64,000 bases of DNA from Deltaproteobacteria bacterium (lineage in GTDB: Bacteria > Desulfobacterota > Binatia > UBA1149 > JAJCZL01). The DNA is taken from positions 70,137 to 134,136 of the forward strand of contig JAJCZL010000038.1 of the NCBI GenBank assembly GCA_029262415.1, given 5' to 3'. Every line of letters starts with the position of its first letter. The first letter of the stretch is position 1. Position numbers and translations under genes: made by a program. Below the pieces are notes generated by a model. That model had not been told where the DNA came from and did no database searches. It worked only from the letters and a program-made list of their open reading frames with translations. Shown in pieces: positions 14,706 through 47,544 of the stretch.

Positions 14706-15602
14706 TCAGGCGGCTCGGTCGACGGCTGCGCGGTAGGTCGTGGCGTCGCGTGCTGCCGCGATCTGCGTGAAGATCTCGCGTAGTAGCGCGGTCTTGTCCT
14801 CGAGCGGAAGTTTCATGCCCGGATGTCGATCCATTCTCTGATCGACGCCTTCGTCGCTAAGTGCGAGCAGGTCGGCGGCGTGAAGTTCGTAGCCCAGCGG
14901 CTCGTTACGCTTGAGTACCGACCGCAGTGCGCGCATGAACACCGGCTTCGGCGTGAGGTAGGCCAGCGTGTGGTAGGTCGGGAACCTTAGCCAGCGCGTG
15001 ACGGCAACTGGGAACTCAGTCAGTCCGCTACCCGCGCCGGTCAGCTTGTACGGGGTACGTTTCGAGAACGCGTGTGCGAACAGATCCATCGAGAAGATCG
15101 AACCCATTCCTTCGCTGCGGTGGTAGGCGGACAAGCGACTGGCGATCAAAGCTGGCGTCGGAAATACCGAGGCGTCGTAGCTGTAACCTGCGCCGGCGAT
15201 CTGCTTGAGTACGCGGTCATTAATGTCCCATGCCGGTGCGCGGAACCCGGCGATTTCGCTGCCGCTGGCTTCGCTGAGCGCGGCCTTTGACCCCGCGACT
15301 TCCAGGTTGAGCGCGTTTTCGGCGAGGGAGCTGAAAGGCTGCGGGTGCGTCATCGAGTGGCTTGCGATCTCGTGCCCAGCCGCGACCATTTCGCGGAGCA
15401 GGGTGCGTTGGTCGTGGGCGTCGCGAGCGATGGTAAAGAACACGCACGGGAGGCCGCACTCGGAGAGCAGTTCGAGCAGTCGTGGGACCGCGGTCCGATA
15501 TATGACATCGCAAGGCGGCAGATCCTCGATGCCGTAGCCCTGCAGATGCCGGTCTACGGTATCGAGATCGCAACTGATGACCGCAAAGGGCCGCGTCCTC
15601 AC
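14706..15602 (-). CDS. Polysaccharide deacetylase (NodB domain)
   Basis: This 298-residue protein belongs to carbohydrate esterase family 4, which removes N- or O-acetyl groups from sugars. The metal site is visible as CDLDTVD (motif 1) and HEIASHSMTHP (motif 2), and GFRAPAWDIND is motif 3. No signal peptide is seen, so it acts in the cytoplasm or on lipid-linked intermediates. It is similar to deacetylases found in exosortase-linked polysaccharide loci. The GTG start at 15602 overlaps the stop of the aminotransferase gene as GTGA, indicating translational coupling. It is one of three NodB proteins in this window. Confidence 0.87.
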   Translation of the reverse strand: MRTRPFAVISCDLDTVDRHLQGYGIEDLPPCDVIYRTAVPRLLELLSECGLPCVFFTIARDAHDQRTLLREMVAAGHEIASHSMTHPQPFSSLAENALNLEVAGSKAALSEASGSEIAGFRAPAWDINDRVLKQIAGAGYSYDASVFPTPALIASRLSAYHRSEGMGSIFSMDLFAHAFSKRTPYKLTGAGSGLTEFPVAVTRWLRFPTYHTLAYLTPKPVFMRALRSVLKRNEPLGYELHAADLLALSDEGVDQRMDRHPGMKLPLEDKTALLREIFTQIAAARDATTYRAAVDRAA

Positions 15603-18297: not shown

Positions 18298-20040
18298 TCA
18301 ATCTGCGTGTGCCGCGGTCTGCCGCTCCGACGCGGTCTTCAGTTCGATCCGGTGGCTATCGTTCGGCGCCAATAGTGGGAGCGGGTAGGAGTTCCCCCCG
18401 TAGCGAACTACCAGTCCTTCGATCGCGTTGCCGCCCCGGTTCGTGACTTCAATACCGCCGCCATCAATTGTTGCATAGACTTCTTCTCGTCGGTGCCACC
18501 AATCGGCGATCTGGTCCTGCGAGGTCAGCCACATGCCGGCGCGCGAGAGCGTCTTTACGACGAAATCCAGGTGCTCGCCGCGTACAAGGGCGTCTTCGTC
18601 GCCGAAGACGCCTCCGTGGACGATCGCGACGTACATACCTTGGGTCGCGCAGATGTAGTCCGCTTTGCGCTTGACTGTGTCGCGTAGGGCTCTGACGCTC
18701 TCGCCGAAGAACAGCGGCTGGATGCAATCGGGAGCCGTCACCGGAAGCTCCAAGCAGCGGCTGGCGCGGACCCTCCCGCCGCTTTCCCCGATCGGCGGAC
18801 GGTAGGGTAAGTTGAGGCGCACACCGGTTCCGAAGCTATGGGTGTTCTCGCGATCGACGTCCGGGAAAGAAGAGTCATAGCTCCAGCCGGTTCGGTCCAG
18901 CGCTTCGATGAGCTCGCGTGATCGGTCTAATCGCGGGCTGCGGTATCCCTTTGGGGCTACGCCGGTCGTCGTTTCTATGGTGTTGCGGGCACGTTCCAGT
19001 TGGGCGTCGAGCGTGTCTGCACCGGTGCGTACCGGGTCGCCCCTGTGGGTAAGACCGTGGCAGCCGATAGTATGCCCACCCACGCGCGTGCGCTCACGGT
19101 CACCCAGCCACGCTGAGGCTGACTCCGCCACGAGGTTGATGGTGGCGGGGTGTCCTGATTTGTCTATCCGATCGAGCAATCGATCGAGACCGTGGGTGTA
19201 TGCGAAACGGCACGGCTCAATATCGTGGGTGATTGACGCGGCCGAGGTGTAGGGCGCCGGCCATTTGGCCAAGCTTGGAACCTCGCCTCCGCAGACCAGG
19301 GCCGCGAGCTGCGCGACGAAGCGGCTGAGCAGCCATCCTGTTGCGTCGCAGGGGTAGACGGATGCGAGCGGACGGATTCGCGCCAAGCGTGCTTGCAGTC
19401 CGGCGTAGGCATGTTCGCGCAAGGGCTTCCTGAGCGCTTCGGGAGCCGCGTAGTAAGCGGCAAAGCCTGCCTTAGACCAAGGCGAAGGGTACGGCCGGTC
19501 GGCACCGGAGTGTGCGGTCTGCGTGACGTAGGACTCGCTGATCAGCGTTGCCAAAGCGGCGCCGGGATCGGCGAGGCACCAGATCGTCCGGCCTTTGCGT
19601 ATGACCAGCGGCGCGGCAAACACCTGCTCGCCGGCGAGCAATTGAAGCGCAGCGAGTTGTTCGCCGACGGCTCCGTCGTGCAGCGAAACCAGTGGTGCCG
19701 AGGGGACGCTCACTGAGCCGATCCCGCAACTGGATCCTACGTCACGAACGTCTTCGGGCCAGAACTGTTGTTGAAGGGGAAGCTGGAAGGACGCGTTGCT
19801 GAGCAACGCCCCGCGTACGCCGAAGCGTGTTTGCGCGAAACGGGTTCCGCCGATGAATACCACTGCGGGTCGGTCTGCGAGCGCACGGATTTCGTCTTCG
19901 TTGAGATCGACTGCCGAGACGAAAAGCGGCCCTCGGGCGTCGTCAAGCGTGGTGACCTTGCGGAAAGCGATACCCTCGCTGCGAAGCGCGGTTTCGAGGC
20001 CGAAGCCCGCGTAGGTATTGCGCGAGAAGAGTTCGATCAC
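18298..20040 (-). CDS. Large polysaccharide deacetylase-like protein with N-terminal extension
   Basis: The product has about 580 residues. An N-terminal region (about 1-240) of alternating alpha/beta type resembles a class I glutamine-amidotransferase-like fold without a recognisable Cys-His site. The NodB domain follows, with ITHDIEPCRFAY as motif 1 and GGHTIGCHGLTHRGDP as motif 2, then GYRSPRLDRS. The C-terminal ~70 residues look like a small beta domain. GTG 20040 is chosen: AGAGG lies 7 bases upstream and the protein then starts on a beta-strand. An ATG at 20124 would overlap the upstream gene by 59 bases and lacks a ribosome site. Polymer-modifying or lipid-intermediate deacetylation is inferred. 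Confidence 0.8.
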   Translation of the reverse strand: MIELFSRNTYAGFGLETALRSEGIAFRKVTTLDDARGPLFVSAVDLNEDEIRALADRPAVVFIGGTRFAQTRFGVRGALLSNASFQLPLQQQFWPEDVRDVGSSCGIGSVSVPSAPLVSLHDGAVGEQLAALQLLAGEQVFAAPLVIRKGRTIWCLADPGAALATLISESYVTQTAHSGADRPYPSPWSKAGFAAYYAAPEALRKPLREHAYAGLQARLARIRPLASVYPCDATGWLLSRFVAQLAALVCGGEVPSLAKWPAPYTSAASITHDIEPCRFAYTHGLDRLLDRIDKSGHPATINLVAESASAWLGDRERTRVGGHTIGCHGLTHRGDPVRTGADTLDAQLERARNTIETTTGVAPKGYRSPRLDRSRELIEALDRTGWSYDSSFPDVDRENTHSFGTGVRLNLPYRPPIGESGGRVRASRCLELPVTAPDCIQPLFFGESVRALRDTVKRKADYICATQGMYVAIVHGGVFGDEDALVRGEHLDFVVKTLSRAGMWLTSQDQIADWWHRREEVYATIDGGGIEVTNRGGNAIEGLVVRYGGNSYPLPLLAPNDSHRIELKTASERQTAAHAD

Positions 20041-20065
20041 AGCGGGCCTCTTCGCCGCAACCGGC

Positions 20066-20716
20066 TCAGGCGACCTCGAGAAGGCCGCCGCTCGCGAGGG
20101 GGCGATAGTTGCGGCTACAGACATTGCATTCGGATCCGGCCGCAGTGTCAGCGCCGATGTTCAGGGGGTTGCCGCAGACACAAACCCAACCGTGGACCCG
20201 CGCTGGGTTACCGTGTACGAGCGCGTGCGCGGCGACCGGCTTTGTTACCACAGACCCCATCCCGATCATTGCGTAGCGTCCAATCTCGATACCCGGGCCG
20301 ATAGTAGCGGCGGCACCGATTGTTGCGCCGCTGCGGACCACGGTTGCGAGAGTTTCTTCGTTCGGTTCAGAGGGGGCAGGCGACATGGTGCGATGATCGA
20401 ACGCGCGTGGGAACCTGTCGTTGGTAAACGTCACCCCGGCGCTCACCATGACGTTCTCCTCGATCGTGACCGCGGTACAGATGTATACGGAAGCATTGAT
20501 CTTTACACCGTCGCCGATCTCGACGCCGTACGCGATGTAGCTTTTCCCGCCGATGATGCAGTCGCGTCCGATTCTGCAGGGCGCACGGACGTGGGCGTTG
20601 TCCCAGATCGAGGTTCCGCTACCGATCTCGGCGCCCTCCTCGACTATAGCGGTGGGATGAATTCGTGCCGGGGGTCGGCTGGGGGCTTCAGGGGGCGCGG
20701 TGCGCTCGCTCTTCAC
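20066..20716 (-). CDS. Left-handed beta-helix N-acyltransferase (WbpD-like)
   Basis: The 216-residue protein is built of hexapeptide repeats (IHPTAIVEEGAEIGSGTSIWDNAHVR and onward), the fold of nucleotide-sugar N-acetyltransferases such as WbpD/WlbB. The segment VTFTNDRFPRAFD is typical of that subfamily. The C-terminus adds a zinc-ribbon-like VCVCGNPLN...CNVC pair, a feature seen in some relatives. GTG 20716 overlaps the stop of the Gfo/Idh gene as GTGA, so the two are translationally coupled. Together with the oxidoreductase and the DegT aminotransferase it fits a 3-acetamido-sugar pathway. The acyl donor is probably acetyl-CoA (family knowledge). Confidence 0.88.
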   Translation of the reverse strand: MKSERTAPPEAPSRPPARIHPTAIVEEGAEIGSGTSIWDNAHVRAPCRIGRDCIIGGKSYIAYGVEIGDGVKINASVYICTAVTIEENVMVSAGVTFTNDRFPRAFDHRTMSPAPSEPNEETLATVVRSGATIGAAATIGPGIEIGRYAMIGMGSVVTKPVAAHALVHGNPARVHGWVCVCGNPLNIGADTAAGSECNVCSRNYRPLASGGLLEVA

Positions 20717-21787: not shown

Positions 21788-22534
21788 TCACCCCGTCACC
21801 GTTGCCACTGTCCTGCGTACGTAGCGCGTGCTGATCAATACCGCGGTCAACGTCAGCAGGCTCAGGTGCGCGACGATCGCGTCGCCGATTTTCAGCTTGG
21901 ATTCGCCGTAAACGCGTTTTTCCAAAGGGATCGGTACCTCGCCGACCTTCGAACCGGCAAGCATCGCGCGCAGCATCATTTCCGCGACAGCGGCGAAACC
22001 GCTCGCATGAAAGTTGAGGCCGCGGATGGTCTCGCGGCGGTAGGCACGGAACAGGCAAGTAAATGTGTAGACGTCTTGTCCGATCAGTCGTTTGTAGATC
22101 GACGAGACCATGCGGCTGAGTTGGAGACGGATTTTGCCGCCCTCGGCCTGGGCGCTGTCCGGATGCCATGCTGAAGCCGTTACAATCTCGTTTCCATCGT
22201 CGAGCTTGGCCACGAGTTCGGGCAAGCGCTCGGGGGGGTAGGTGCAGTCGCTGTCAATCGTGCAGATGACCGGCGAGTGTGCGTTCTCGAAACCGGTGCG
22301 CAGTGCAGCTCCAAGTCCAAGGTTCTCCGCGTGCCGGACCACTTTGACCCAGTCGCGGTCGCGCGTGGCTGTCAAAAGCATCGTGAATGTCTCATCGGAG
22401 CTGCCGTCGTCGACGAATAGGAACGACCAATCCGGCACCGTCTTGTGAAACTTGTCGAGACGGTCGAGAAGCGGGGTCAGTCCGGCCTCTTCGTTGTAGC
22501 ACGGGACGATGACTGTGACGGGTGAAGCTTGCAT
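21788..22534 (-). CDS. Glycosyltransferase family 2
   Basis: The 248-residue protein has the GT-A fold. VTVIVPCYNEEAGL opens the domain, FLFVDDGSSDET binds the nucleotide and CTIDSDCTYPPE holds the metal-binding region. The C-terminus has hydrophobic stretches (HLSLLTLTAVLIS), as in dolichyl-phosphate mannose synthase-like enzymes that load polyprenyl phosphate. It probably adds a sugar to the lipid-linked repeat unit. ATG 22534 has AAAGGA 5 bases upstream. It follows the initiating transferase by 9 bases. Confidence 0.9.
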   Translation of the reverse strand: MQASPVTVIVPCYNEEAGLTPLLDRLDKFHKTVPDWSFLFVDDGSSDETFTMLLTATRDRDWVKVVRHAENLGLGAALRTGFENAHSPVICTIDSDCTYPPERLPELVAKLDDGNEIVTASAWHPDSAQAEGGKIRLQLSRMVSSIYKRLIGQDVYTFTCLFRAYRRETIRGLNFHASGFAAVAEMMLRAMLAGSKVGEVPIPLEKRVYGESKLKIGDAIVAHLSLLTLTAVLISTRYVRRTVATVTG

Positions 22535-22543
22535 CGATGTCCT

Positions 22544-23971
22544 TTAGGCGGCTCCGTGACCACTGAGAACCGCAGGGATTGTCTTAAGCAAGATCTTCAT
22601 ATCGAGAGTTAGCGACCAGTGATCGATGTACTCCATGTCTGACTTAATCCACTCATCGAAGGTCGGTTCGCGGCCCTGCGACTGCCACAAACAGGTGATG
22701 CCCGGCTTGACGCTAAAGCGGCGTTTGTGCCACCGCACGTCGATACGGTCGACATCCCGAATCGGGAGTGGTCGCGGTCCCACAAGGCTCATTTCGCCCT
22801 TCAATACGTTGTATAGCTGCGGCAGTTCGTCGATGCTGGTGGTGCGCAACCAGGCGCCGAGTTTGGTGACGCGCGGGTCTTCCTTGATCTTGAAGATCGG
22901 GCCCTGCGCCTCGTTGCGATCCTCTAGATCGGCTTGAAGCGCTTCGGCGTCGGGCACCATGGTTCGGAACTTCCACGTCCGGAAGCGGCGACGGTTGTAA
23001 CCGACACGTTCCTGGCTGTAGAAGGCCGGGCCTTCGGAATCACGTTTGACCGCGATCGCGACGATCAGGAAGAACGGCGAGAGAAGCACCAACCCGACTA
23101 CGCTGGCCACGACGTCCACGGCGCGTTTGACCATCAGCTTAGGGGTCTCGGGGGGTCCGCTGAAGATGGTGATGACCGGCTTGCCACCGAGTTCGTCGAC
23201 AACGGCGCGTCCCCAGGCCAGATCGGCGACGCGTGCGAGAACCCGCACCATGATGCCCTGCTCCTCACATAGCGATATGACCGGCCAAATTAACGCTTGC
23301 GAGCTGTCGAGCGGTAACGCGACGAAGACCTCGTCGACCGGGTGAGCCTCAAACAACTCGCTCAAACGGGCGGTCAAGCGATCGCCCAGGCCGCTGTCAG
23401 GCTCGGTGAGCTTGCGCTCATCGACCTCGAGCACTTCGAGTACGCGGTAGCCGAGATCGTTGCGGCGCGCGAGACTCGAGGACATTCCGAGCGCTTTGGA
23501 TCCGTCGCCGATTACGATGACGTTGCGGATGTTGTGCCCGCGCTGCCGTAGCTGTCGGGCGACGGCACGTAGGAAGCGGCGCTCGAATGCCAACGCCGCG
23601 AAAGAGAAGGTCCCGAAAGCGGTCAAGAACGGCGACGTAACGTATTCGAAGTCGAAGGCCAGGTCTGCCGGGACGAGCGGGGCGACCGCGACCAAAACGG
23701 CGATACCGAGGTCGCGCCACTCTCTGCTGGCGGGAGAAAGCCGGTAGGAGCGGTACAATCCGAAGACCCGCAGGATGAAATGCCACGATGCGATGTAGGT
23801 AGCCACGAACAACACATTCTCGATCGTGACCCGCATCTGCAGAACAGAGAGGACCGGTTCTCTGCCGAGAGGGTCTGCGGTTATCGCCAGGGCGAGGATC
23901 ATGGCCACCGTTACGACCACGAGGTCGGCGACCGTAATGAGCGTCATGAGCGCTTTTCGTTTTGGTGTCAT
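22544..23971 (-). CDS. Polyprenyl-phosphate sugar-1-phosphate transferase (WbaP/WcaJ type)
   Basis: This is the initiating enzyme of exopolysaccharide repeat-unit synthesis. It puts a hexose- or acetamidohexose-1-phosphate on undecaprenyl phosphate at the inner membrane. It has 475 residues: several N-terminal membrane helices, a central CoA-binding-like domain ([13 protein letters not shown], about 145-270), and the C-terminal bacterial-sugar-transferase domain. The latter shows [51 protein letters not shown] and [17 protein letters not shown] 23971 is chosen because the longer frame would overlap the upstream gene. Confidence 0.93.
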
Positions 23972-23990
23972 CGGCGCTTTAGGGACCTTT

Positions 23991-24845
23991 TCAACCCGCG
24001 AGTTGTCGCATCCATGCGGGCAGTTCATCGCGGGTCCCGTTTGCGACAATCCCGAGGATATTGCAGTGCACCGAGCGCGCGCGTTCGACGGCGGCGCGTA
24101 GGTCTTCGTGGGTAGTCATGTGCGGTTCGATAACCAATATAACTCCGTCGGTTCCTCGCCCGACGAGTGCCGCATCGACGTTGTGCCCCAAGGCCGGTCC
24201 GTGAATGATCAGCAGATCGCAGGCCGATTCCGCAGCTTCGATCCAGCCCGTCAGTTCGGCCGGTAGAGTGCCGGCGTTCAGCCGGAAGCTGATGGGATCT
24301 GCCATTTTCTGGGCTTCGGGATCCAGCGATGCGCTGTTGGTGAGGAAACGCGTGTGTTCGCCGATTACGTAGCGGCCGTCGCTGAATCTCAGTCGCGCGC
24401 TGAAGGTTTGCAACTCGTGCCGGTTGGCCTCCGTCGCGAGGCCGGCGATGACGTCTTCGACTGCCTCACGGCCCGAGCAAGGGGCGACGACGATGCTGCG
24501 CAGGCCGCTGTCGACGGCGATGGCGCGAAGGTTGTCGAACGCCCGCGCGAAGGACTCCTTGCGCGCCTGGGTCTGGCCGGCCGATCGTCGGGGCGGCTCG
24601 GGCAGGACCTCCGGCTGAGATCCGCGGTCGTGGCTCTCGACTGTGGGAGACGCTGTACTAGCCCCCTCGACAGCTTGATCCGTGGCGTATGCAGGTCGGA
24701 CCTCTGTAGCAGAGCGGCGGGCGCGCGTTCTACGTTGGCTGCCGGCACTGTTATCGGGCCCAGCGACGGGTTTGGAGCCTGCGTTCAAATCGGAGTCCGG
24801 GTGCTCTTCTTCGACGCGATTCAGGATACGGAAGTATTCACTCAT
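23991..24845 (-). CDS. BY-kinase/CpsD-like protein with degenerate nucleotide-binding motifs
   Basis: Position and fold pattern match the CpsD/Wzc tyrosine autokinase that partners Wzz and export proteins. The 284-residue protein has a disordered Pro/Ser/Arg-rich region (about 20-100) and then the P-loop domain. The expected Walker A is replaced by APCSGREAVED (121-131), with no GKS/T. The expected Walker A'/B aspartate is histidine in CDLLIIHGPALG (209-220). A tyrosine-rich C-terminal tail is also missing. It may be a non-catalytic regulator of chain length. ATG 24845 overlaps the upstream ATPase stop by 8 bases, consistent with coupling. Confidence 0.75.
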   Translation of the reverse strand: MSEYFRILNRVEEEHPDSDLNAGSKPVAGPDNSAGSQRRTRARRSATEVRPAYATDQAVEGASTASPTVESHDRGSQPEVLPEPPRRSAGQTQARKESFARAFDNLRAIAVDSGLRSIVVAPCSGREAVEDVIAGLATEANRHELQTFSARLRFSDGRYVIGEHTRFLTNSASLDPEAQKMADPISFRLNAGTLPAELTGWIEAAESACDLLIIHGPALGHNVDAALVGRGTDGVILVIEPHMTTHEDLRAAVERARSVHCNILGIVANGTRDELPAWMRQLAG

Positions 24846-26451
24846 CGTTGCCGCCCTCGGTGTTCCGGTCACTAGCCGTCAGATCGGGAAACTTGAAACG
24901 ATCACCCGCGACGATGAGGTCCGGGTTCTCTATTTGTGGGTTCGCCGTGCGAACCGTCTTGAGGATCTCCGGTGAGTAGTCGCCGTAGATGGCGACTGCC
25001 AACTCGATCAAAGTCGCTCCCTGCGCGACTGTGACGAGACTTTCCGAGGTCCGACCCGAATTCGCTGTGGAAACCTCAACGACACCCGCGGTGTTTACGG
25101 CTTGCTTCAATGGGGCATTCACTGGGACTGTCGCGGTAGCGACGATTTCCGGCGCAGGTGGCGGCGGCGTTGCCGGCTTCTCCGTTGCTATGCTGTTGCG
25201 TTGACGGATCGCCGCGATGCGATGTTCATCCGCGGTCGGCGTAAGCGGGGAGTTGACTGCGTCGGTTGGCAGTGCGGTCGCTTGCGCAATCTCTGCTATC
25301 GAGTCGGCGGGCGCAGCCGCGGTTATCGCCACCTCGAGGGCTGCAGAGGCGGCCGTTGGGTGTGAGCTCGGGGGATCGCTTGTCTGTCCAAGTGAAGCGA
25401 CGGCCGGCTGGGCTGCAGGTATGACGGTATCGATCGCAGCGTCGCTGTTAAGGGTGGTGCGCGGCACTGCTATCTCGTCTCTGCGGGCGGACCCAGCGTC
25501 TCCGAAATTCGACAGGTAAAACAGCGCTCCGACGATCCCCACGAGCAGCCCGCCGAGCGCCCAGGCAAGCCCGGAGGCGGCGGACGAATCGACGAGTCTT
25601 GCGCCCCCGGAGCGCGACGGGAAAAAACCTCTGTCTAACTTCACAAGACCGGTGCCCGAGCGTTCGCGCATTGCGGTCACGACCAGGGCTTTGTCGATTT
25701 CTGCGAGATCGCGACCGTACGCGTACAGCATCGCGTTGTGGCACAACACGTTGATCCGGCGCGGGATTCCCAGGGATCGTTTGGCGATCAGATTCAGAGC
25801 GCCGGTTGTAAAGACCTGACTGGTACCGCCTACAGAGGACAGGCGGTGTTCGATATAGGCGAGCGTCTCTTGCTTGCCGAGAGGATTCACGTGGGTACGC
25901 ACTGCGACCCGTTCTGCGACCTGACGAAGCGATGGCTTGCGGAGCTTCGCATCGAGTTCCGGCTGGCCGACTAAGACGATTTGCAGCAGCTTGCGCTTGT
26001 AGGTCTCGTAGTTCGAGAGCAGCCGAAGCTCCTCGAAGGCGTCGTCTGAAAGGTTCTGTGCCTCGTCCACGATCAGTGCGGCGGTGTGCCCTTGACGATC
26101 ACAGTCCAAGAGGAAGTCGTTGAGTTCTTCGAGCAAGTCCAGGCGCGTGGTGCCGTCGGCTCTGCGTCCGAAGTCTTTGAGCGCGCTGCGCAGCAGGCCG
26201 TCGAATGAAAGTTTGGTGTTGGAGACGTAGGCGGTACGGATGCGCGGTCCGAGGCTGCTGAGTAGCGTGTAGAGCAGTGTGGTCTTGCCGGTTCCAACTT
26301 CGCCGACCATCGCAATCAGGCCGCGGCGCTCAAGGAGCCCGAGCTTCAGCGCGGCCAACGCCTCGGTGTGGATCTCGCTCTTATAGAGAAAAGCGGGGTC
26401 CGGCGTGAGCGAGAAAGGCTCGCTGCTCAGTTGGAAGTGTTCGAGGTACAT
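24838..26451 (-). CDS. ExeA/GspA-like membrane ATPase with C-terminal LysM-like domain
   Basis: The 537-residue protein has an N-terminal AAA ATPase domain (1-270): MYLEHFQLSSEPFSLTPDP start, Walker A GEVGTGKTT (50-58), Walker B LIVDEAQNLS and GQPELD sensor-like segment. This architecture is typical of the ATPase in exosortase-type exopolysaccharide loci. A transmembrane helix (about 293-313, LAWALGGLLVGIVGALFYL) leads to a long Pro/Ala-rich periplasmic stretch. A C-terminal segment (LVTVAQGATLIELAVAIYG...NPDLIVAGDRFKFP) resembles LysM and may bind peptidoglycan. It may position the export complex at the wall. Confidence 0.85.
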   Translation of the reverse strand: MYLEHFQLSSEPFSLTPDPAFLYKSEIHTEALAALKLGLLERRGLIAMVGEVGTGKTTLLYTLLSSLGPRIRTAYVSNTKLSFDGLLRSALKDFGRRADGTTRLDLLEELNDFLLDCDRQGHTAALIVDEAQNLSDDAFEELRLLSNYETYKRKLLQIVLVGQPELDAKLRKPSLRQVAERVAVRTHVNPLGKQETLAYIEHRLSSVGGTSQVFTTGALNLIAKRSLGIPRRINVLCHNAMLYAYGRDLAEIDKALVVTAMRERSGTGLVKLDRGFFPSRSGGARLVDSSAASGLAWALGGLLVGIVGALFYLSNFGDAGSARRDEIAVPRTTLNSDAAIDTVIPAAQPAVASLGQTSDPPSSHPTAASAALEVAITAAAPADSIAEIAQATALPTDAVNSPLTPTADEHRIAAIRQRNSIATEKPATPPPPAPEIVATATVPVNAPLKQAVNTAGVVEVSTANSGRTSESLVTVAQGATLIELAVAIYGDYSPEILKTVRTANPQIENPDLIVAGDRFKFPDLTASDRNTEGGNDE

Positions 26452-26468: not shown

Positions 26469-27935
26469 TTAGGAAGGAATCTCCCCGATCACCGCGATGC
26501 CGGTGGCTCGCGCGGCTTCGTTCGCACTTTTTACGGTTGGGTCGAGTCGGTCCATCAGGTAGGCAAGCGCCAAGCCTGCGAGCAGGCTGAATAGAGTACC
26601 GACTGCGATGCCGAGCGCGGCGCTGGAGCGCAGTGGGGTGGTGGGAACCGTTGCCGGTTCGGCCACCGCGAGGTTCAAGATCTTTGACTCGTCCAGTGCG
26701 TTGCTAAAGCGGACTTCTTCGAGCTTGCGCACGTACGTAGTGTACGACTCTTTCGCTGAGGCAACGTTCTTCTCCAGTTGCTCCCTTTCTGCGCTCAGGC
26801 TGTCGAGTTTCCCGACCAGGCCGCGGTACTTTTCCAATTGGGCGGTCAGATCGGCTACGCGGGCTTGCAGCGCGGCTTTCTGCGTGCGCGCCGCCACCAG
26901 GCTCAGCGCCACTTGGTCTTGGACTGGCAGAGCGTTGGGAATGATGGTGCTGGTGCCGTCGGGATTGACGATGTGGCGGAGCTGGGAGATCTGACGGTCG
27001 ATATCGCGGATCACGGTGCTCGTCGGCGCGTATTGGCCGAGCAGTTGGGTCTTTTGGATCTCCAGGTCCAACATCCGCTGCTGAATCATCGCGGTTGCCT
27101 GATCTACGCCGCCGAATGCCTGCTGGCCGGATTGGCCGGCAAGAAAATCGGCAGTCGCGCGCACTTCGGCGAGTCCCGTCCTCGCGGTTGCGAGCTCCGC
27201 CTCGATGCTGGCGATTCGCGCACGAAGATCGCCTTCGTTCTGCGTCAGGATCTCGGTGCCTGCGCGCTCACGGAATCTTGCCAACGCAGCGTTGTGTTCG
27301 GCGAGATCGGCGGCGGCAAGGTCTTTTTGGCGGTGGAAGAACTCTTCGGTGCTGTCGCTGTTGCTGCGCTTGGCGTTGAGTCCCATGTGGGCGTCGAGCA
27401 GCTCGTTGACCATTGTCGCTGCCCACTTGGGATTGGCGGACTGGAACGAGACGGTGATCAGGCTCGACCTCGGTACAGGCAAAACCGATATTCTGGCGGC
27501 GATGCCGTTGATGATCCGATCGCGGCGGGTGGCTGCTTCGATGCCGTGATAGCGGCGGTAAATCATATGCGGGATATCGAAAGGCAGCGAGACGATGTCG
27601 CTGACGGTCCAGCCGGGTTCTCTAACGCCGATGTTCGGATAAGCGTCGAGCACGGTGCGTACCAGCTCCGGCGACTTCAAGAGTGCGACTTCGGAGTTCA
27701 CCGCGGATTCGCTGGAGCGCGTGACAAAAGGACGTGTTGCAGCATCCGGCGACGCGGCAACGCTTGCGCGCTTCTCGAGAACCATCACTTTCGCAACGGC
27801 GCGGTATACGGGTGGCTTTAGGAGCGCCATTCCGAGGCTGGCGATAGCGCCGATCAGTGTAACGGCCAGAATCAAGCGGCGTCGCCGCACGACCGTGGCG
27901 AGGAGTTCTTTCCATACCAGAGTTGCGTCGTTCAT
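26469..27935 (-). CDS. Wzz/GumC-type polysaccharide co-polymerase
   Basis: The 488-residue inner-membrane protein controls chain length and links synthesis to export. It has an N-terminal membrane helix (about 20-40), the Wzz domain (PPVYRAVAKVMVLEK), a long periplasmic coiled-coil region (about 180-400, with QQRMLDLEIQKTQLLGQ and SLSAEREQLEKNVASAKE), and a C-terminal helix (LGIAVGTLFSLLAGLALAYL). The cytoplasmic kinase domain of Wzc is absent; the separate degenerate kinase gene lies two genes downstream. ATG 27935 begins 2 bases after the wza stop. Confidence 0.9.
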   Translation of the reverse strand: MNDATLVWKELLATVVRRRRLILAVTLIGAIASLGMALLKPPVYRAVAKVMVLEKRASVAASPDAATRPFVTRSSESAVNSEVALLKSPELVRTVLDAYPNIGVREPGWTVSDIVSLPFDIPHMIYRRYHGIEAATRRDRIINGIAARISVLPVPRSSLITVSFQSANPKWAATMVNELLDAHMGLNAKRSNSDSTEEFFHRQKDLAAADLAEHNAALARFRERAGTEILTQNEGDLRARIASIEAELATARTGLAEVRATADFLAGQSGQQAFGGVDQATAMIQQRMLDLEIQKTQLLGQYAPTSTVIRDIDRQISQLRHIVNPDGTSTIIPNALPVQDQVALSLVAARTQKAALQARVADLTAQLEKYRGLVGKLDSLSAEREQLEKNVASAKESYTTYVRKLEEVRFSNALDESKILNLAVAEPATVPTTPLRSSAALGIAVGTLFSLLAGLALAYLMDRLDPTVKSANEAARATGIAVIGEIPS

Positions 27936-27937
27936 CT

Positions 27938-28639
27938 TTATCGCCCGATTGCTATGCCCGGATTGATCGGCAAGAGATCCCGGATGTACTGCTGAACCCA
28001 GACATTGGCATCGCCGATCGCAGAGCGAGGGACCCAAACCACGTCGTAAGGGGCAAGGTAAACGTCCTCGCCCAAATCGCTGCCGTCCTGCACACGTTTC
28101 AAATTCACTTTGCGGGAGACGACTTGGCCATCGGTGCTACGACGAACCACAATGACGGTTCCGCGGTGCGCAGTGGTAAGGAATCCGCCGGCTTCTTGGA
28201 TCGCTTGGTAGAGCGTGATCTGGCCGGTCATCGGCACCATACCCTGAGAGCCGACTTCACCGCCGACGTAGACCTTGTGGCCGGCGAACTGCTGGACGAT
28301 GACGGCAACATCCGGTGTCGCCAACTCGCCGGTGAAGCGTCGAGTAAGATCCTCGTCGAGCTCTTTTGGCGAGCGTCCGGCAGCACGGACTTCGTCAACA
28401 AACGGAAGTGAGATCATGCCATCGGGGCGGATCACTACGTCTTGATCGAGTTCAGGGTTGCGGTAGAAGCGGATCGATAGGGAATCGCCGGGCTGGAGGC
28501 TGTAGGGCTGGAGCTCCGCGGGCACGGATGCGCTGCGGAACAGCGCGCTATCACCGGTATTGGGTAGGTGCTCAGTACTCGCCGAACAGGCCGCTATCGA
28601 GATCGCCACCACCACCGCCACAGTTGTAATCGTCTTCAT
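27938..28639 (-). CDS. Polysaccharide export outer-membrane lipoprotein (Wza type)
   Basis: The 233-residue protein starts with a lipoprotein signal (hydrophobic core, then IAAC with the lipidated Cys near residue 18). A Poly_export domain follows (YSLQPGDSLSIRFYRNPELDQDVVIRPDG, LPFVDEVRAAGRSP), then an SLBB-like domain (VYVGGEVGSQGMVPM, LYQAIQEAGGF). Family members form the outer-membrane exit channel. It is the first gene of the leftward 13-gene operon. ATG 28639 is preferred over 28660 because the lipobox then falls at the usual distance. Confidence 0.92.
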   Translation of the reverse strand: MKTITTVAVVVAISIAACSASTEHLPNTGDSALFRSASVPAELQPYSLQPGDSLSIRFYRNPELDQDVVIRPDGMISLPFVDEVRAAGRSPKELDEDLTRRFTGELATPDVAVIVQQFAGHKVYVGGEVGSQGMVPMTGQITLYQAIQEAGGFLTTAHRGTVIVVRRSTDGQVVSRKVNLKRVQDGSDLGEDVYLAPYDVVWVPRSAIGDANVWVQQYIRDLLPINPGIAIGR

Positions 28640-28881
28640 TGGTCCGTATTCCTTCGACAAATCTATTTTCGCCTGAGTTCGCGTTCAGCCGTCGAACCTT
28701 ATCTAACGTCCAGCGTTCAGACCACTGGTTACGCGCCTTCCCGCATACTAGCCACAGTGCGTGGTAGCATGGCGGGCAGAGTTCCGGTGGCCTTCACTAC
28801 GCAGGCACAGGCCAGGCTCGCCGGCTCTGGTCGTGAGGTGAGCGTCTGACGCACTGCTCACCAGGGATTTCTCGCACAACC

Positions 28882-37284: not shown

Positions 37285-40200
37285 TTACGGAACCGGTTGG
37301 AACGTTGCGGTCAGCGTGAAGGCGGTAGTACCTGCGCCTACGTCGTGTGCCCCGGCTCCCGCATCCGACCAGCCCACAAACTCATAGGTAGTCGCGCCGA
37401 CCGTTTGAGGAGACGGCGCGGAGACCGTGTTGTTCGAGTTCGCGATCACCGTTGCGTACAACGGTGTCGCTGCGCTTTCGGCGTTTATGCCGAGCTCGAG
37501 GCCGGGCGGAGATGTTTGCAAGGTGATGGTCACCGGCTGGGGCGAAACGAACACGCTTTCGGTGTCTTGTAATCCGCCGGAGTCAGTTACGGTAAGGCGG
37601 ATCTCGAGGATAGACGGGTATTCGTGGTCCGGAGCCGGTAGGCTTGCCGACGACACCCCGACAAACTGGTTGAGGAAGTGGATGTGGCAGTCTGAGGGGC
37701 AGTGGTGGAGGATAATGTCCCACACCATTGCGCTATCGGGCAGCGATCCGTCTTGGGTGTCAATGGCGGTACCTGAGAAAGCCACGCTCGAGCCGGCTCC
37801 CCAATTGTTGCCGCTTTGGAGGCTGATCGTGGCCGTAGGTGGGGTATTGCCGACGCTGATAGCGATGGTGTCGGTATCTGTTCCGCCGTTGCCGTCATCG
37901 GCCTCGAGTGTGACTACGTACGAGCCCGGCTGCGTATAATTGAACGCGGGGCTCACGGTCGTCGCATCGTTCAGTTGCCCGTCGCCGTCGAGATCCCATC
38001 GGTAACTGAGGGTGTCGCCAGGATCGCCGTCGGTAGAACTTGACGCGTCAAAGTTCACTGTCAGCGGGGCCGCCCCGTTGGTCTTGTCTGACCAGGCTAC
38101 TGCGACCGGAGGCTGGTTGCCCGGGAAATACTGGATGCGACGTAACTCACCACCAACGATGTCCACGTAGAACAGGTCGCCTTGCGGTCCGATCTGGAGA
38201 TCGACCGGCGTTTGCGCACCGGCGGAGAACGTCGCCCGTGTGGCGGGATCGGGATTGCCGTCGGTTCCGGTCTTCATCGACCATATGCAGTCTCGTGAGT
38301 AGTCCGCGAAGAACAGGGCTCCGTTGAACTCTGGCGGGTAGCCGCCTCCTTGGTAGAAGGCCACGCCCGTGGTCGCCGAGCTACCGGTTCCGCACTTCTC
38401 GCCCGGCTCGACCTGTTCAAAGTGACTGTACGTATAGAACGGGCCGGTCACGGGTGCGATGGTATCGCCGTAGAGGTTCTCGCAAATATCGAGGTTCAAT
38501 ACATCGTAGCCCTGCATGGGGGCCGGGCCCTCGTAGCACGGCCAGCCAAAGTTCGGCGGCACCGGACCAGTGGTGTCGTTGATCCTGTTGATCTCTTCCC
38601 ATTTGCCCCAGCCGACGTCGCTGATGAATACTTCTCGGGTTCCACTGCGGGCGGTCATGCGGACCGGGTTGCGCAGACCGAAAGCAATGATCGCGTCGTC
38701 GTCGGCAACGGCTCCGCCGACCAGTGGGTTATCAGGCATCGGCGCCGCGGTGATCGGGTCGATACGGATTACGGTCCCACTGTATGAGGTCGGGTCGCCG
38801 GAAGTCCGCAGGTCCTGTGCGCGCAGGGCACCGCCTTCGGCATCCGGAGGGCTGAGAAGCGCTCCCACGCCACCAGGCGGATCTCCGCAAGGATTGACGT
38901 CGGGGAAGCCGGCCTGTCCCCAGTCGCTGAAGGTGAAACTGGCACCATCGCCGCCGCTGGCCAGCAGTGCGCCGCTGTCGTCGAAGCCCAGAGCTCCGAT
39001 GGAGTGGCTCGGGAACTGTTGGCACCAGTCTTCGACCATGATGATTTCGGGTCCGAACGCGTTGTTGCCCAACGCCTCAAAACGCGAGACGCGGCCGGCG
39101 ACCACACAGCCGTCTTGTGCTCCACCCGGAGGTGAAGGGCAGGTGTCGACATCACCACCCACGGTTCCCCAGACCGGCGGCGTGCCTCCAGGAGGCGCGT
39201 CCAGCGTGTACATGACGTAGAGGTATGGGGTGGTCGGGAAGTTCGGGTGCAGCTCCAAGCCCACCAGGCCGCGGTCCCAGTAGTTATGGACGCTGGTTCG
39301 CAAGTCGACGAATATCTCGGGGGAGGTATCGTTGAGGTCGTCGAATACCTTTACTATTCCGCGCTTCTCCGCGATGAACACGCGTCCGTCGGACACGAAA
39401 CGAACCGATGTAGGTTGTACCAGTCCGGTTATCACCGCGGTGTCGAGGAAGCCGGCCGGAGTGCTCAGCCCAACCGGAACCGCGCAGCCGAGCGTGCAGT
39501 TGGCGGTGCCGGGAGGTTCGCACTCTTCGCCGGTGTCGACGACGTTGTCGCCGCAATAGGCCGGGACACAGCTGGTGCGACACGAATCGGCGGCCCCGTC
39601 GTTGTTAAGTACGCCGTCGTCACAGCCCTCGAAACCGCTGAAGATGGAACCGTCTCCGCAGGATGCCGCGACGCAGGTGCTCAGGCACGCGTCGTTGTCC
39701 GAGGTGTTGGCGTCGTCGCAATCCTCGACCCCGGTTTCGACGAAGCCGTCCCCACACGATGCGGCCGTGCAATCGTCGATACACGCGTCAAGGTTGTCGG
39801 TGTTAGCGTCGTCGCACTCCTCAGGGCCGTCGGTCACTCCGTCGCCGCAGGCCGGGAACGAACAATCGCCGCGGCAGGCATCCGGCTGCGTATCGCTATT
39901 CAGGGCGCCTGCATCGCACTCTTCGCCGCTGTCGACAGTGTCATCGCCGCAGATCGGAAGCGCGCAGCTGGTTCGGCAGGCATCAGGCGCTGTATCGCTG
40001 TTCGACGCGCCGTTGTCACACTGTTCGCTTGCGGTGAGGTTGAGCGTCCCATCCCCGCAGGTCACCACCGAACAGTCAACGTCGCATGTCGCAGACTCAC
40101 CGCCGTCGTCACAGTCCTCGCCAGCGGCAGCGTTGGTTATTGCATCGCCACATACCGCCACCGTGCAGTCAGTGTTACAGGTCGCCGATTCGCCGGCGTC

Positions 40201-43200
40201 GTCACAGGCTTCAGCGGAAACCGCGTTTACCAGACCGTCTCCACAGACGGCGGGGGTGCAGTCGGCGTCGCAAGTGCTGGAGAACCCTCCATCATCGCAC
40301 TGCTCTCCGGCGGTAACGACGGCGTTGCCGCAGGCGGTAGTGGTGCAGTTGTTGTCACATCCATCTCCGCTGGTAATGTTGCCGTCGTCGCAAACCTCGG
40401 GGGGCGCCACGATGGCGTCGCCGCACCCGGTCGGGGTGCACGTGGACTCGCAGCCATCGCCGTCTGTGGTATTTCCGTCATCGCAAGCCTCGCCCAGAGT
40501 CCGGATAGCGTTGCCGCATCCGGTCGGCGTGCAATTGGCGTCGCAGCCGTCACCGCTGTTCAGGTTGCCGTCGTCACAGCTCTCACCGACGCTCACGAGC
40601 GCATTACCACAGGCGGTGAACGTGCAGTTGGTGTCGCACCCGTCGCCTTCGATAGCGTTTGCGTCGTCGCAGGCCTCGCCGGACGTCGCATTGAGCGTGC
40701 CGTCTCCGCACAAGGCTGGAGTGCAGTTCAGGTCGCAAGTTGACGATTCACCGCCGTCGTCGCAGGACTCACCCGAAGTGATGACCCCGTTACCGCAAGC
40801 GGTGACGGTGCAGTTCGAGTCACACCCGTCGTCATCGACCAAGTTTGCGTCGTCGCATTGTTCGCCGGCGGTGGCGATTCCGTTAGCACACCCGGTCGGT
40901 TTGCAGTTCGAGTCGCAGCCATCTCCGTCGACGGTGTTGTTGTCGTCACAGGTCTCACCGGATGACGGGTTGGTTTGGCCGTCGCCGCACACCGCGGCTG
41001 TGCAGTCGGCGTTGCAGGCCGCGCTTTCGCCTGCGGCGTCGCACTCTTCGCCTGCGGCGGCGTTGGTCTTGGCATCACCGCAAACGCTGAACGTACAATC
41101 GTCGTTGCACGTCGTGCTTTCTCCGGCGTCATCGCATTCTTCGTTGCCGTTGTTGACGAGTCCGTCCCCGCACAGTTCCTCAAGGCAGGTAGGGCCGCAG
41201 CCGTCCCCGGCCAGAGTGTTGCCGTCTTCGCATTGTTCGTCGGATGTGAAGATAGCATCACCGCAGACATGCGAGATTCCGTAAATGAGGAGCTCGGCGA
41301 TCGACGTGAAGTCGTGCGCACCACCTGGTTGGCCGGCGATCCTGATGCCGTCGCCTTCGACGGCATCGAAGTCGAAGACGTAGGTATTGTAGTTCACACC
41401 GTCGTTGATTGCCGGGTACAAGGGGGTGGACGCGAACCCGGTGACGGCGTTCCATGTCCCGTTTTGCAGGATCTCGACAGTGATTGTTTCAAACCAGCCG
41501 CCGTCCGAATAGTGCTTGCCCTCTTGGAAGATCACTTGGCGGAAGGTCTGCGATGACAGGTACTGGTATCCCATCCATTCAAACGATGACGCAACCGCGC
41601 CATCGAACGTGTCGTATTGGCGGTTGCCCTGAGTGGATCCCGCAGGCGGCATATCACCGTCGCGGATCACCTCGGGGTCTTTATTCCCGCCGCCTGTCGG
41701 GGTTGGAACCGATACGATTATCGTCCCGAGCTGGGTAATGTCGTCGGGTGCACGGTCGGCACAGGTGTCGTCGCAAACCGCAGTGCCGGGCGGGTCGCAC
41801 TGCTCTCCGTCGTTGACGATCCCGTCATTGCAGAATTCGATTACACAGGTGCCGTTACAGCCATCACCGGCAGCGGTGTTGGCGTCGTCGCACTCTTCGC
41901 CCGCCGCGCCATTAAGGACGCCGTCGCCGCACAGCGGGAAACTGCAGTCGGTATCGCATGCAGCAGTGGCACCGCCGCCGTCGCACTGTTCCCCAGCCGC
42001 TGCGTTGAGAACCAGATCGCCGCAAACGACTTGCGTGCAGTCGGTGTCGCAATTCGAGGTTTCGCCACCGTCGTCGCACTGCTCGCCTTGGGTGAGGATC
42101 CCGTTCCCGCAAGCCGTGGCTGTACAATTTGAATCGCACCCGTCGTCGTCGGTGAGGTTGCCGTCGTCGCAGGCCTCGCCGACGGTCACTACCCCGTTAC
42201 CGCATGAGGTCGCCGTGCAGTTCGAGTCGCAGCCGTCATCGTCGGTGGTGTTGGCGTCGTCACACTCCTCGTTCGGGGCGGTGACGCCGTTACCGCAGGC
42301 GCTCGGGGTGCAGTTTGCGTCGCAACCGTCGCCGCTGGCCGCGTTTCCGTCGTCGCATTGTTCGCCTGCATCGATGGCGCCGTTTCCGCAAAGGGTTGTA
42401 GAACAGGTGGCACTGCAGGTGTCGCCGCCGATGAGGTTTCCGTCGTCGCACTCTTCGCCAAAGGTGATGATGCCGTTTCCACACGCCGTGGGCGTGCAGT
42501 TTGCATCGCAGCCGTCGCCGCTGGCCGTGTTGGTGTCGTCACACACCTCGGGGGGCGTAACGAACGAGTCGCCGCACAAAGGCGCGCGTGCGGCGCAGTT
42601 TGCGGCGCACGTCGCGGTGTTGGGCGGCTCGCAAGTCTCGCCGATGACGGTGTTGACAGTGCCGTCGCCGCAGCTGGGCGGCGTGCAGTCACTGTCGCAG
42701 GTGGCGGAGACGCCTGCGGTGTCGCATTGTTCGCCGGCCGTTGCGTTGTGGTTGCCGTCGCCGCATTGAACCGACGTGCAGTCATCGTCGCACGTGGCGC
42801 TTTCACCGCCGCTGTCGCAGGCCTCGGCAGCGCTTGCGTTAACGAACCCATCGCCGCAGATCGAGAAGGTGCAGTCGGGGTCGCAGGCCGACGACTCACC
42901 GATGCTGTCGCAGTCTTCGCCGTTGTTCGCGATGCCGTCGCCGCAGAACTCGACTGTGCACGCCGAACTACAGCCGTCTCCGTCGAAGTTATTACCGTCG
43001 TCGCAGCCTTCGGGCGAGGTAGAGATTCCGTCGCCGCAGACATGGGCGTAACCGAAGACCTCGAGTTCGGCGGTAGAGATGAAGTCGGCAAAGCCGCCGG
43101 GGTCACCGTATATCCGGATGGCGTCGCCCTCTATGGGATCGAAGTCGAATGTGTAGGTTTCAAAGTTGACACCGTCATTGAACGCTGGGTACGGCGGTGT

Positions 43201-46200
43201 TTCGGTCAAGCCTGTGACGATTTCCCACACGCCGCTTCTGAGCACCTGCACGGTCACAGCATCGAACCAACCACCGCTGCCGAAGTGCTTTCCTTCCTGC
43301 CAGACGACTCGAGTGAAAGTCGCTGGTCCGCCGTACGCGTACCCGATCCAGTCGTCGGCAGCGGGCGTGTTACCGTCATAAGAATCAAACTGTCTGGACG
43401 AGCTGTTGTTTCCGACCGGCGGTTTGTCGCCGTCTCGGATAATCTCGATATTCTTGCTTCCGCCGCCGGTGGGGAAGGGCACGCGTGCGATGGAGCTGCC
43501 GAGTTGGGTGAGATTCTCCAACGCACGGACCGTGCAACTGGACGAACATGTAGGCGTGCCTGGCGGTTCGCACCCTTCTGTCCCGTTGACGATGCCGTCT
43601 CCGCAACTTTCGGTCGCGCAGGCGGCCGAGCAGCCATCATCGTTCGCGGTATTGCCGTCGTCGCATGCTTCGCCGGCCGTTGAGTTGAGGCTTCCGTCGC
43701 CGCAGACCGCCGCCGTGCAGTCTAGGTCGCAGACGGCCGATTCTCCGCCGTCGTCGCAAGTCTCACCGGCCGCGCTGTTCAGTGTGCCGTCGCCGCAAAC
43801 CGCCGGAGTGCAGTCAGTGTCGCACGAGGCTGACTGACCGGCAGTGTCACAGCTCTCACCGGCAGTGACGTTGGTTACACCGTCGCCGCAGACCGCCGCC
43901 GTGCAGTCTAGGTCGCAGACGGCCGATTCTCCACTGTCGTCGCAGGTCTCTCCGGCTGCGCTGTTTTGCGTGCCGTCCCCGCAGCCGGCAATCGTGCAAT
44001 CGGTATCGCAAGATGCGCTCTCGCCTCCCGTATCGCAAGTCTCGCCCGCAGCGGTGTTGGTAAGGCCGTCGCCACACGCAGCGAAGGTGCAGTCGACGTC
44101 ACAAGTCACAGACTGCCCGGCGGTGTCGCACTGTTCCGAGCCGTCAAGTTGACCGTTTCCGCATAGGGTTAGCGTGCAGGTCGAAGTGCACGCGTCCCCG
44201 TTGTTGATGTTGCCGTCGTCGCATTCTTCGCCGGCGGAAACAATGCCGTTTCCGCACGTGGTTACGGAGCAGTTCGAATCACAACCGTCGCCGTCGATCG
44301 TATTGCTGTCGTCGCAAGCCTCACCGGCAGCGGTGTTGAGCGTTCCATCTCCGCAAGCGGGGAGGGTGCAATCGCCGTCGCATGCGGCGGTTTGCGCACC
44401 CGAGTCGCAGGCCTCGCCCGCAGCCGGATTGAATATCCCGTCGCCGCACACAGGCGCAGTGCAGTCAGTGTCGCACGAGGCCGAGGCGCCGCCGGAGTCA
44501 CACACTTCGCCCGCAGTCGGGTTGAAGGTGCCGTCGCCGCAGGCAGCCGGAGTACAGTCGCTGTCGCAGGTGATCGACTCTCCGGCATCGTCGCACTGCT
44601 CGCCGGTGGTCACGATACCGTTCCCGCATACCGTGATGCTGCAGTCGGAGTCACAGCCGTCACCGTCGGCAAGATTGCCGTCGTCACACGCTTCGCCGGC
44701 GGTGGCCACGCTGTTGCCACACGCCGTGAAGGTGCAGTTGGTGTCGCAGCCGTCGCCCTCGATCGCGTTGCCGTCATCGCATTGCTCGGATGCGCTATTG
44801 ACGATACTGTCGCCGCAGACTTCGGTCGTACAGCCCGCGCTACACCCGTCGCCGCCCACGCTGTTGCCGTCGTCACATTCCTCTGCCGAACTCAGGACGC
44901 CGTCGCCGCAATATTCGCTGAATCCGTAGACCAGGAGTTCACCGACAGAGATGAAATCGTTGAACCCGCCGGGATCGCCGAAAAGCCGGATCGCCTGGCC
45001 GGCGATAGGCTGAAATTCGAATGCGTAGCTCTCAAACGTGACGCCGTCGTTGAAGCCCGGGTAGGTGGGTGTGTCGGTGAGGCCGGAAACGTTGACCCAG
45101 GCACCGTTCTGCCTGACCTGCACAGTGAGCGCGTCGAACCAACCACCGCCGGAGAAGTGGCGACCCTCTTGGAAAAATAGGCTTGCGAACAGGCGCGTGC
45201 TCGGGAAGTCGTAGCCTATCCAATCGTCTGCAGCTGCACTGCTTCCATCGTAGGTGTCGTATTGCCGCCGGGAAGTATTGGTTCCGATCGGTGGGATGTC
45301 ACCATCGCGGATAATCTCGATGTTGTGGTTTCCGCCACCGGTCGGTGCGGTGACGCGTGCAATAACGATCGCCTCCTGCGTCATGTCGATCGGTAGCACC
45401 AGTTGGCAGCCGGCGTCGCAATAGGTGGTGCCGGGAGGGTCGCATTGCTCGCCGTTGTTGACGATTCCGTCGCCGCAGGTCTCGACAGCGCAACTCGGGC
45501 CGCAACCGTCGTCGGATGTCGTGTTCCCGTCGTCGCATGCCTCACCGGCCGCAGAATTCAACGTGGCGTCCCCGCAGATGGGAGAGGTGCAGTCGGGGTC
45601 ACACGTGGCGCTGGTGCCCCCGTCGTCGCATTCTTCTCCAGCCGTCTGGTTTACGTTTGCATCGCCGCACGCGGCAGCAGAGCAATCGCTGTCGCAGGCC
45701 GCGCTTTCGCCGCTGTCATCACAAAACTCGGGCGCTGTCACGATTCCGTTACCACAGGCGGTCGGTGTGCAATTGGAGTCACACCCGTCGCCGCTGGCGC
45801 CGTTACCGTCATCGCAAGCTTCGGGCGTTGTCAGGATCCCGTTACCGCAGGCGGTCGGGGTACAGTTGGAATCGCAGCCGTCACCATCTGCGCCATTGCC
45901 GTCATCGCAGGTCTCGGGCGTTGTCACGATCCCGTTACCGCAGCCGGTCGGGGTACAATTGAAGTCGCACCCGTCGCCGTTCGCGACATTGCCGTCGTCG
46001 CAGGCCTCGCCGGCGTCAAGGTTGCCGTTGCCACACGCCGTGATGGTGCACGCCGAGCTGCAAGCATCGTTTTCGTCTAGGTTACCGTCATCACACTCTT
46101 CGCCGGCGGTGACGATGGTGTTGCCGCAAGCGGTAGGCGTACAGTTAGAGTCGCACCCGTCGCCATCGACCGTATTGGTGTCGTCACAAAGCTCGGGCGG

Positions 46201-47280: not shown

Positions 47281-47544
47281 CACTGTCGCAGTGGCTATCC
47301 TTGGGCAGAGCACAGCGCAGGGCCGGGGCGCCCTCGGCTGTCACAGGTTTCCCGGGGGCCGGTACTCCCTATGTCCGAAATCGCACAATACTCCTGTTTA
47401 GAACACTAATAGTCAATGAACTCGAATGTCGAGACGGTTATTTGCAGCGGTACGAAAACGGACGAATTTATCCCCCTGGGGTAGTGTATGCCTGCTCAAA
47501 TGGGGGGGCGGTGTTCGCTGAAGCGTCCCTTGCGTGTGTCGAGA

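Follow-up and report, generated by a model that had tools for sequence, protein, structure and literature searches.

What does a tyrosine-kinase-like protein do in a polysaccharide export operon when its nucleotide-binding motifs have been lost? This question is raised by a gene in the 64,000-nucleotide stretch of DNA analysed here (the window), which forms part of contig C38 in a draft genome of 3.9 Mb and 83 contigs. As the first-pass annotation had it, the gene is intact, with exactly the boundaries given in Table 1. Its product comprises an N-terminal helix (MSEYFRILNRVE; residues 1–14), a low-complexity linker (residues ~15–88) and a BY-kinase fold devoid of the usual motifs (residues ~89–284), the BY-kinase-like region thus corresponding to the C-terminal ~190 residues. 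It is encoded together with an outer-membrane polysaccharide export protein (OPX), a polysaccharide co-polymerase (PCP) of 485 residues, in which Pfam recognized only Wzz and weak GNVR matches, an ExeA-type AAA ATPase and an initiating sugar-phosphate transferase (PGT). The frame listed for the PGT opens at a TTG; by comparison with locus L003, the ATG of MTPKRK, just past the pseudokinase stop codon, is the likely start.

Table 1. Operon genes around the pseudokinase-like gene (window coordinates).
Feature	Position	Strand	Remarks
Pseudokinase-like BY protein, 284 aa	23991..24845	-	intact ORF, ATG start
ExeA-type AAA ATPase	24838..26451	-	TIGR03015-like, under cut-off; GEVGTGKT present; weak LysM-like C-terminal match
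PCP, Wzz/GNVR, without kinase domain	26469..27926	-	C-terminus DPTVKSANEAARATGIAVIGEIPS
OPX, outer-membrane polysaccharide export protein	27938..28660	-	Poly_export 6.8e-20, SLBB
PGT, initiating sugar-phosphate transferase	22544..24049	-	Bac_transf 7.3e-67; TIGR03025 above cut-off
GT2 glycosyltransferase, next operon gene	21788..22534	-	

A Pfam search with the window protein returned nothing above cut-off. Among NCBIfam models, TIGR01007 (polysaccharide biosynthesis tyrosine autokinase) matched it with E=5.1e-8, at a score below the model cut-off, and also matched all 13 members of the family to which the window protein belongs (class A; see below). When a profile of these 13 members was compared with PDB sequences, the top 15 matches were all BY kinases, ahead of any other protein (CapAB, 3.9e-7; Wzc, 1.7e-5; also Etk, VpsO and BceF). 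An AlphaFold2 model, built from three sequences (mean pLDDT 65.1, pTM 0.59), was of low confidence for residues 1–91 (almost all below 50), while the core from residue 111 onwards mostly reached pLDDT values of 76–89, with one dip to 52 at residues 171–180. The best Foldseek matches of this model were Wzc, BceF, CapAB, VpsO and Etk, and DALI-like Z scores were 15.4–13.4 for BY kinases versus 11.5 for the best non-BY protein. By sequence comparison, the homology to BY kinases is beyond chance, and the predicted fold is the one expected of a BY pseudokinase of the EcpK/HfsB type.

To place the motif positions, we aligned 87 distinct kinase-like domains from the fetched loci, comprising 34 fused kinases (GKT in 34/34), nine stand-alone proteins with GK[ST], 30 stand-alone proteins with a replaced lysine (class B), one transitional protein (T) and the 13 class A members. 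The labels "intact stand-alone" and class B are defined by the lysine itself. As all intact stand-alone loci and some of the class B ones were taken from 20 hand-picked regions, the ratio of the two groups is no census. In agreement with the first-pass annotation, the Walker A slot of the window protein (VVAPCSGREAVEDV; APCSGREAVED) contains no P-loop, and the catalytic lysine is found in none of the 13 class A members. The sequence IIHGPA, which had been taken for the next motif, is present (residues 213–218), but it aligns with Walker B; the A' slot reads QTFSARLRF. Throughout class A, a P-loop is missing from the Walker A slot, the A' slot contains AE, AT or AR, the Walker B aspartate is replaced by E, T or H, and the stretch from A' to B spans 51–66 residues, compared to 80–91 in fused kinases. 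The tyrosine cluster is likewise missing, as had been noted: the only tyrosines of the window protein are Y4, Y53 and Y159, leaving none in the last 60 residues, where class A proteins in general have zero or one.

The octamer interface of BY kinases is built from two halves, an EX2RX2R motif in helix α2 and the tyrosine cluster (as described in PMC3795738). EX2RX2R, read as E..R..R, occurs in 33 of the 34 fused kinases and in 0/13 class A proteins in either of two alignment registers; in the alternative register, the last arginine is kept in 13/13, with D, E or G in place of the middle basic one. With both EX2RX2R and the tyrosine tail lost, class A lacks both halves of the interface. Loss of EX2RX2R is not unique to class A, as the full motif occurs in only 1/30 class B proteins and 2/9 intact stand-alone kinases. 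The window protein thus has none of the features of an active BY kinase of the CpsD/Wzc kind, i.e. Walker A lysine, A' DxD, Walker B aspartate, tyrosine cluster and EX2RX2R, and motifs and tyrosine tail are missing group-wide (13/13), as in a BY pseudokinase.

Class A was found in 13 of 148 genomes of the class (E below 1e-27), always with an intact frame. The window protein shares 28–43% identity with the 12 other members; its nearest relative is 43–44% identical. Residues M1, S2, Y4 and L8 at the start and P276 and W278 at the end are invariant. For seven close pairs from three genera, a set that consists of relatives of the window protein, dN/dS was 0.21–0.36 over the full length and 0.11–0.29 over the last 190 codons; the relatives are under purifying selection. 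One further class A-like copy, left out of the 13 on account of its shortened frame (G082; L025/L066), lies near a class A-type PCP (L066:7873-8406, G082:C3); its open frame encodes only 178 residues and is possibly frameshifted or misassembled. Sequencing error or decay as the origin of the missing motifs was considered and rejected, because the 13 relatives are alike, their frames are intact and dN/dS is below 0.4; the situation that would have spoken for an error, relatives with intact motifs, did not occur.

Outside these genomes, a contig scan of further genomes with the window protein alone found no relatives, and a scan with the family alignment found only two loci from metagenome-assembled genomes (L042, Candidatus Binatia; L043, Deltaproteobacteria). 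A plasmid search with the window protein gave six weak matches, all six labelled kinase or polysaccharide biosynthesis, and one with a lysine-less paralogue (P0004) gave 287 records. Our literature search on tyrosine kinases in Candidatus Binatia found no paper in the library used.

A tree of 65 domains, calculated with the motif columns removed and including 12 of the 34 fused kinases and all other domains, is the one grouping that does not depend on the lysine. Class A (support 100/99), class A plus the transitional protein (98/94) and class B (97/95) each fell on one branch. A, T and B together reached only 90/67, so that the catalytic lysine may have been lost once across the three groups. 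The transitional protein (L058:843-1571, G071:C18; L058/L027) has a class A-like start, MSDYFHALNR, and a GEGCT sequence without the lysine, and has kept DAD and the Walker B aspartate. The genome that carries the window also encodes a second stand-alone BY-kinase relative (L073:7343-8200, G000:C42), with GEGAST, in which the lysine is lost, and DLN in place of DxD; it belongs to the 30-member clade.

Around class A genes, the order OPX-PCP-ATPase-pseudokinase-PGT was found wherever the contig reaches, often followed by the GT2 gene. Counting the window, the PGT gene lies downstream in 13/13 loci and the ATPase gene directly upstream in 12/13; OPX and PCP genes are present in 11/13, the two remaining contigs ending early on that side. 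In the window, the ATPase stop and the pseudokinase ATG overlap by 8 bp; of the 11 other loci, ten show a corresponding overlap of 4 or 8 bp and one, L046, a 12-bp gap. The earlier placement of the ATPase two genes upstream was therefore mistaken. The Wzz-like protein without a kinase domain was correctly recognized as part of an export operon, but it is this PCP, rather than the ATPase, that is encoded two genes upstream. A kinase-less PCP-2 in the same operon is also what would be expected next to a pseudokinase of the EcpK/HfsB type.

In the class A loci compared, the window and nine further distinct ones (all but L050), the PCP ends at or just past a β1-like strand, in a segment resembling DPxVKSAAEAxxxTGLPILAEI. 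This segment resembles the one that precedes the kinase domain (α1-β1) in the fused kinase of the same genome (DVERSLRLPVLGTVP). CapA has been described to form an αA-βA motif with its C-terminus on CapB (PMC3795738), and a comparable arrangement on EcpK has been modelled for the EpsV tail (PMC12004946). The sequence of the PCP tail is therefore suggestive of pseudokinase binding, and the tail would complete the pseudokinase fold.

BY pseudokinases have been defined in PMC12004946, where EcpK of Myxococcus xanthus is described as having neither Walker motifs nor a tyrosine tail, as interacting with EpsV and as being important for EPS. The same paper presents HfsB of Caulobacter as similar to EcpK and as important for the stability of HfsA. 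We likened the window family to EcpK and HfsB by this published description, not by sequence, and the window protein agrees with every part of it that is open to sequence or model comparison. Like EcpK (PMC12004946), it stands alone, has a BY-kinase fold and lacks both the Walker A, A' and B consensus and C-terminal tyrosines; its presumed partner is a PCP-2 that has a short cytoplasmic C-terminus and no kinase domain, and the shortened A'-B stretch recalls the several BY-kinase domain elements that EcpK is reported to lack. HfsB and HfsA of C. crescentus likewise combine, according to the same source, a stand-alone pseudokinase with a kinase-less PCP-2 in one polysaccharide pathway. In contrast to the window operon, which unites the gene with those for PCP, OPX, ATPase and PGT, epsV and ecpK are placed in two clusters with 18 genes between them, and the basic C-terminal helix described for EcpK is not evident in the window family, which ends P-x-W-x-R (PMC12004946). 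The window family also differs in its conserved N-terminal MSxY helix and long linker. Moreover, as the EX2RX2R half of the interface is lost, an octamer such as that modelled for EcpK may not apply to it. Beyond these precedents, the present analysis contributes a class-wide family whose operon is fixed and whose ring-interface motif is lost, a distinct clade without the lysine, and intact kinases that occupy the operon slot of the pseudokinase.

Based on these results, we suggest, with a good measure of confidence, that the window protein is a stand-alone BY pseudokinase that docks on the tail of the kinase-less PCP, stabilises the PCP and helps it to couple polymerisation to export without ATP or phosphotyrosine. 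The fold homology, the loss of motifs and tyrosine tail, the family-wide conservation, the operon and the purifying selection in relatives are shown by the analysis; from these, we infer binding to the PCP tail, stabilisation and an action independent of phosphorylation. The Rossmann-like fold would have been retained for binding a protein, with the α1-β1 elements, which stand-alone BY kinases do not have, being supplied by the cytoplasmic C-terminal PCP tail. Docking would then stabilise the PCP and help it to link polymerisation with export, requiring neither ATP binding nor tyrosine phosphorylation. The scaffold role raised in the first-pass annotation is in line with this best explanation and with the EcpK/HfsB precedent (as described in PMC12004946), and a structural-partner role, as already proposed for EcpK and HfsB, is most likely also that of the window protein.

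The annotation had alternatively suggested that control may have shifted to the ExeA-type ATPase. In the version considered here, the ATPase would control the PCP, with the pseudokinase as its adaptor. The position of the ATPase gene directly upstream in 12/13 family loci, the overlapping reading frames in the window and 10/11 others and the GKT P-loop in every ATPase read would fit this idea. However, the same ATPase directly precedes intact, tyrosine-tailed stand-alone kinases in four of the nine intact stand-alone loci examined (L110, L111, L113 and L120), and 121 of the 148 genomes encode TIGR03015-like ATPases, the genome at hand having five. The ATPase is thus no marker of kinase loss, and we regard a transfer of control as improbable, although the ATPase may act together with the pseudokinase. 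The four intact kinases of the same class occupy the same slot after the ATPase and have a similar MSxxF/Y start, and in L110, L111 and L120 the PGT gene follows as in the window; they differ in having GKT, DxD and the Walker B aspartate intact and three to six tail tyrosines. L111 even presents the full order OPX-PCP-ATPase-kinase-PGT with an intact kinase, but its PCP shows only distant similarity to that of the window (phmmer 1.1e-9).

We give still less credence to an allosteric partnership between the pseudokinase and an active BY kinase encoded elsewhere in the genome. Such a role has been suggested for inactive CapB1 with CapB2 (PMC3795738), and the genome at hand does encode an intact fused Wzc-like kinase (L005, G000:C58; SEGKT, DCDLRKP, tail YYGYYGYYG). 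Against it, a TIGR01007 search to E 1e-6 revealed no intact BY kinase in 3/13 family-bearing genomes (G009, G142 and G086), an absence that is provisional given their completeness of 87, 96 and 85%; the matches in these genomes, where read, were class A, class B and ParA/Mrp-type GGVGK[ST] P-loop proteins, and the weak L140 and L142 showed no P-loop match. Least credible is a remnant that persists in the operon without a function: the low identity (28–43%) between the window protein and the 12 others of its family and the shortened frame of the further copy in G082 could point to one, but the intact frames in 13/13, dN/dS values of 0.21–0.36 and invariant residues at both ends argue otherwise. 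A more far-reaching reading, which we find doubtful although less so than these three alternatives, would have stand-alone BY kinases of this class decay stepwise, through the 30 lysine-less proteins and L058 to the 13 motif-less ones, into a lineage without catalysis and without either half of the Wzc/CapB octamer interface, whose members would control the PCP as a non-ring clamp, each acting with an AAA ATPase dedicated to it.

How a PCP cycles without tyrosine phosphorylation is the question raised by EcpK and HfsB. Here, a natural series within one class runs from intact stand-alone kinases over relatives without the lysine and the A' acid and a transitional form to motif-less proteins. 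As intact and motif-less proteins share an operon slot, one can ask what changes in the PCP when phosphorylation is lost, and also whether the kinase-like part has to form a ring in the first place.

The annotation had also proposed an alignment with P-loop proteins of exosortase loci. An exosortase label for the present locus is unsupported, as the sole exosortase match of the genome lies on another contig (C12). The window protein weakly matches TIGR03018 (XrtA-associated tyrosine autokinase) and its neighbours resemble XrtA-locus families, but its score of 13.8 bits is far short of the cut-off, 230.65. Two low-molecular-weight phosphatase matches are likewise located on other contigs (C34 and C46). 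The cluster itself contains two polysaccharide deacetylase-like genes (14706-15602 and 18298-20124, minus strand; TIGR03006 below cut-off). Elsewhere in the window, an ORF of 3342 residues (37285-47313, minus strand) contains 24 stretches that match the cysteine-rich acidic repeat TIGR02232.
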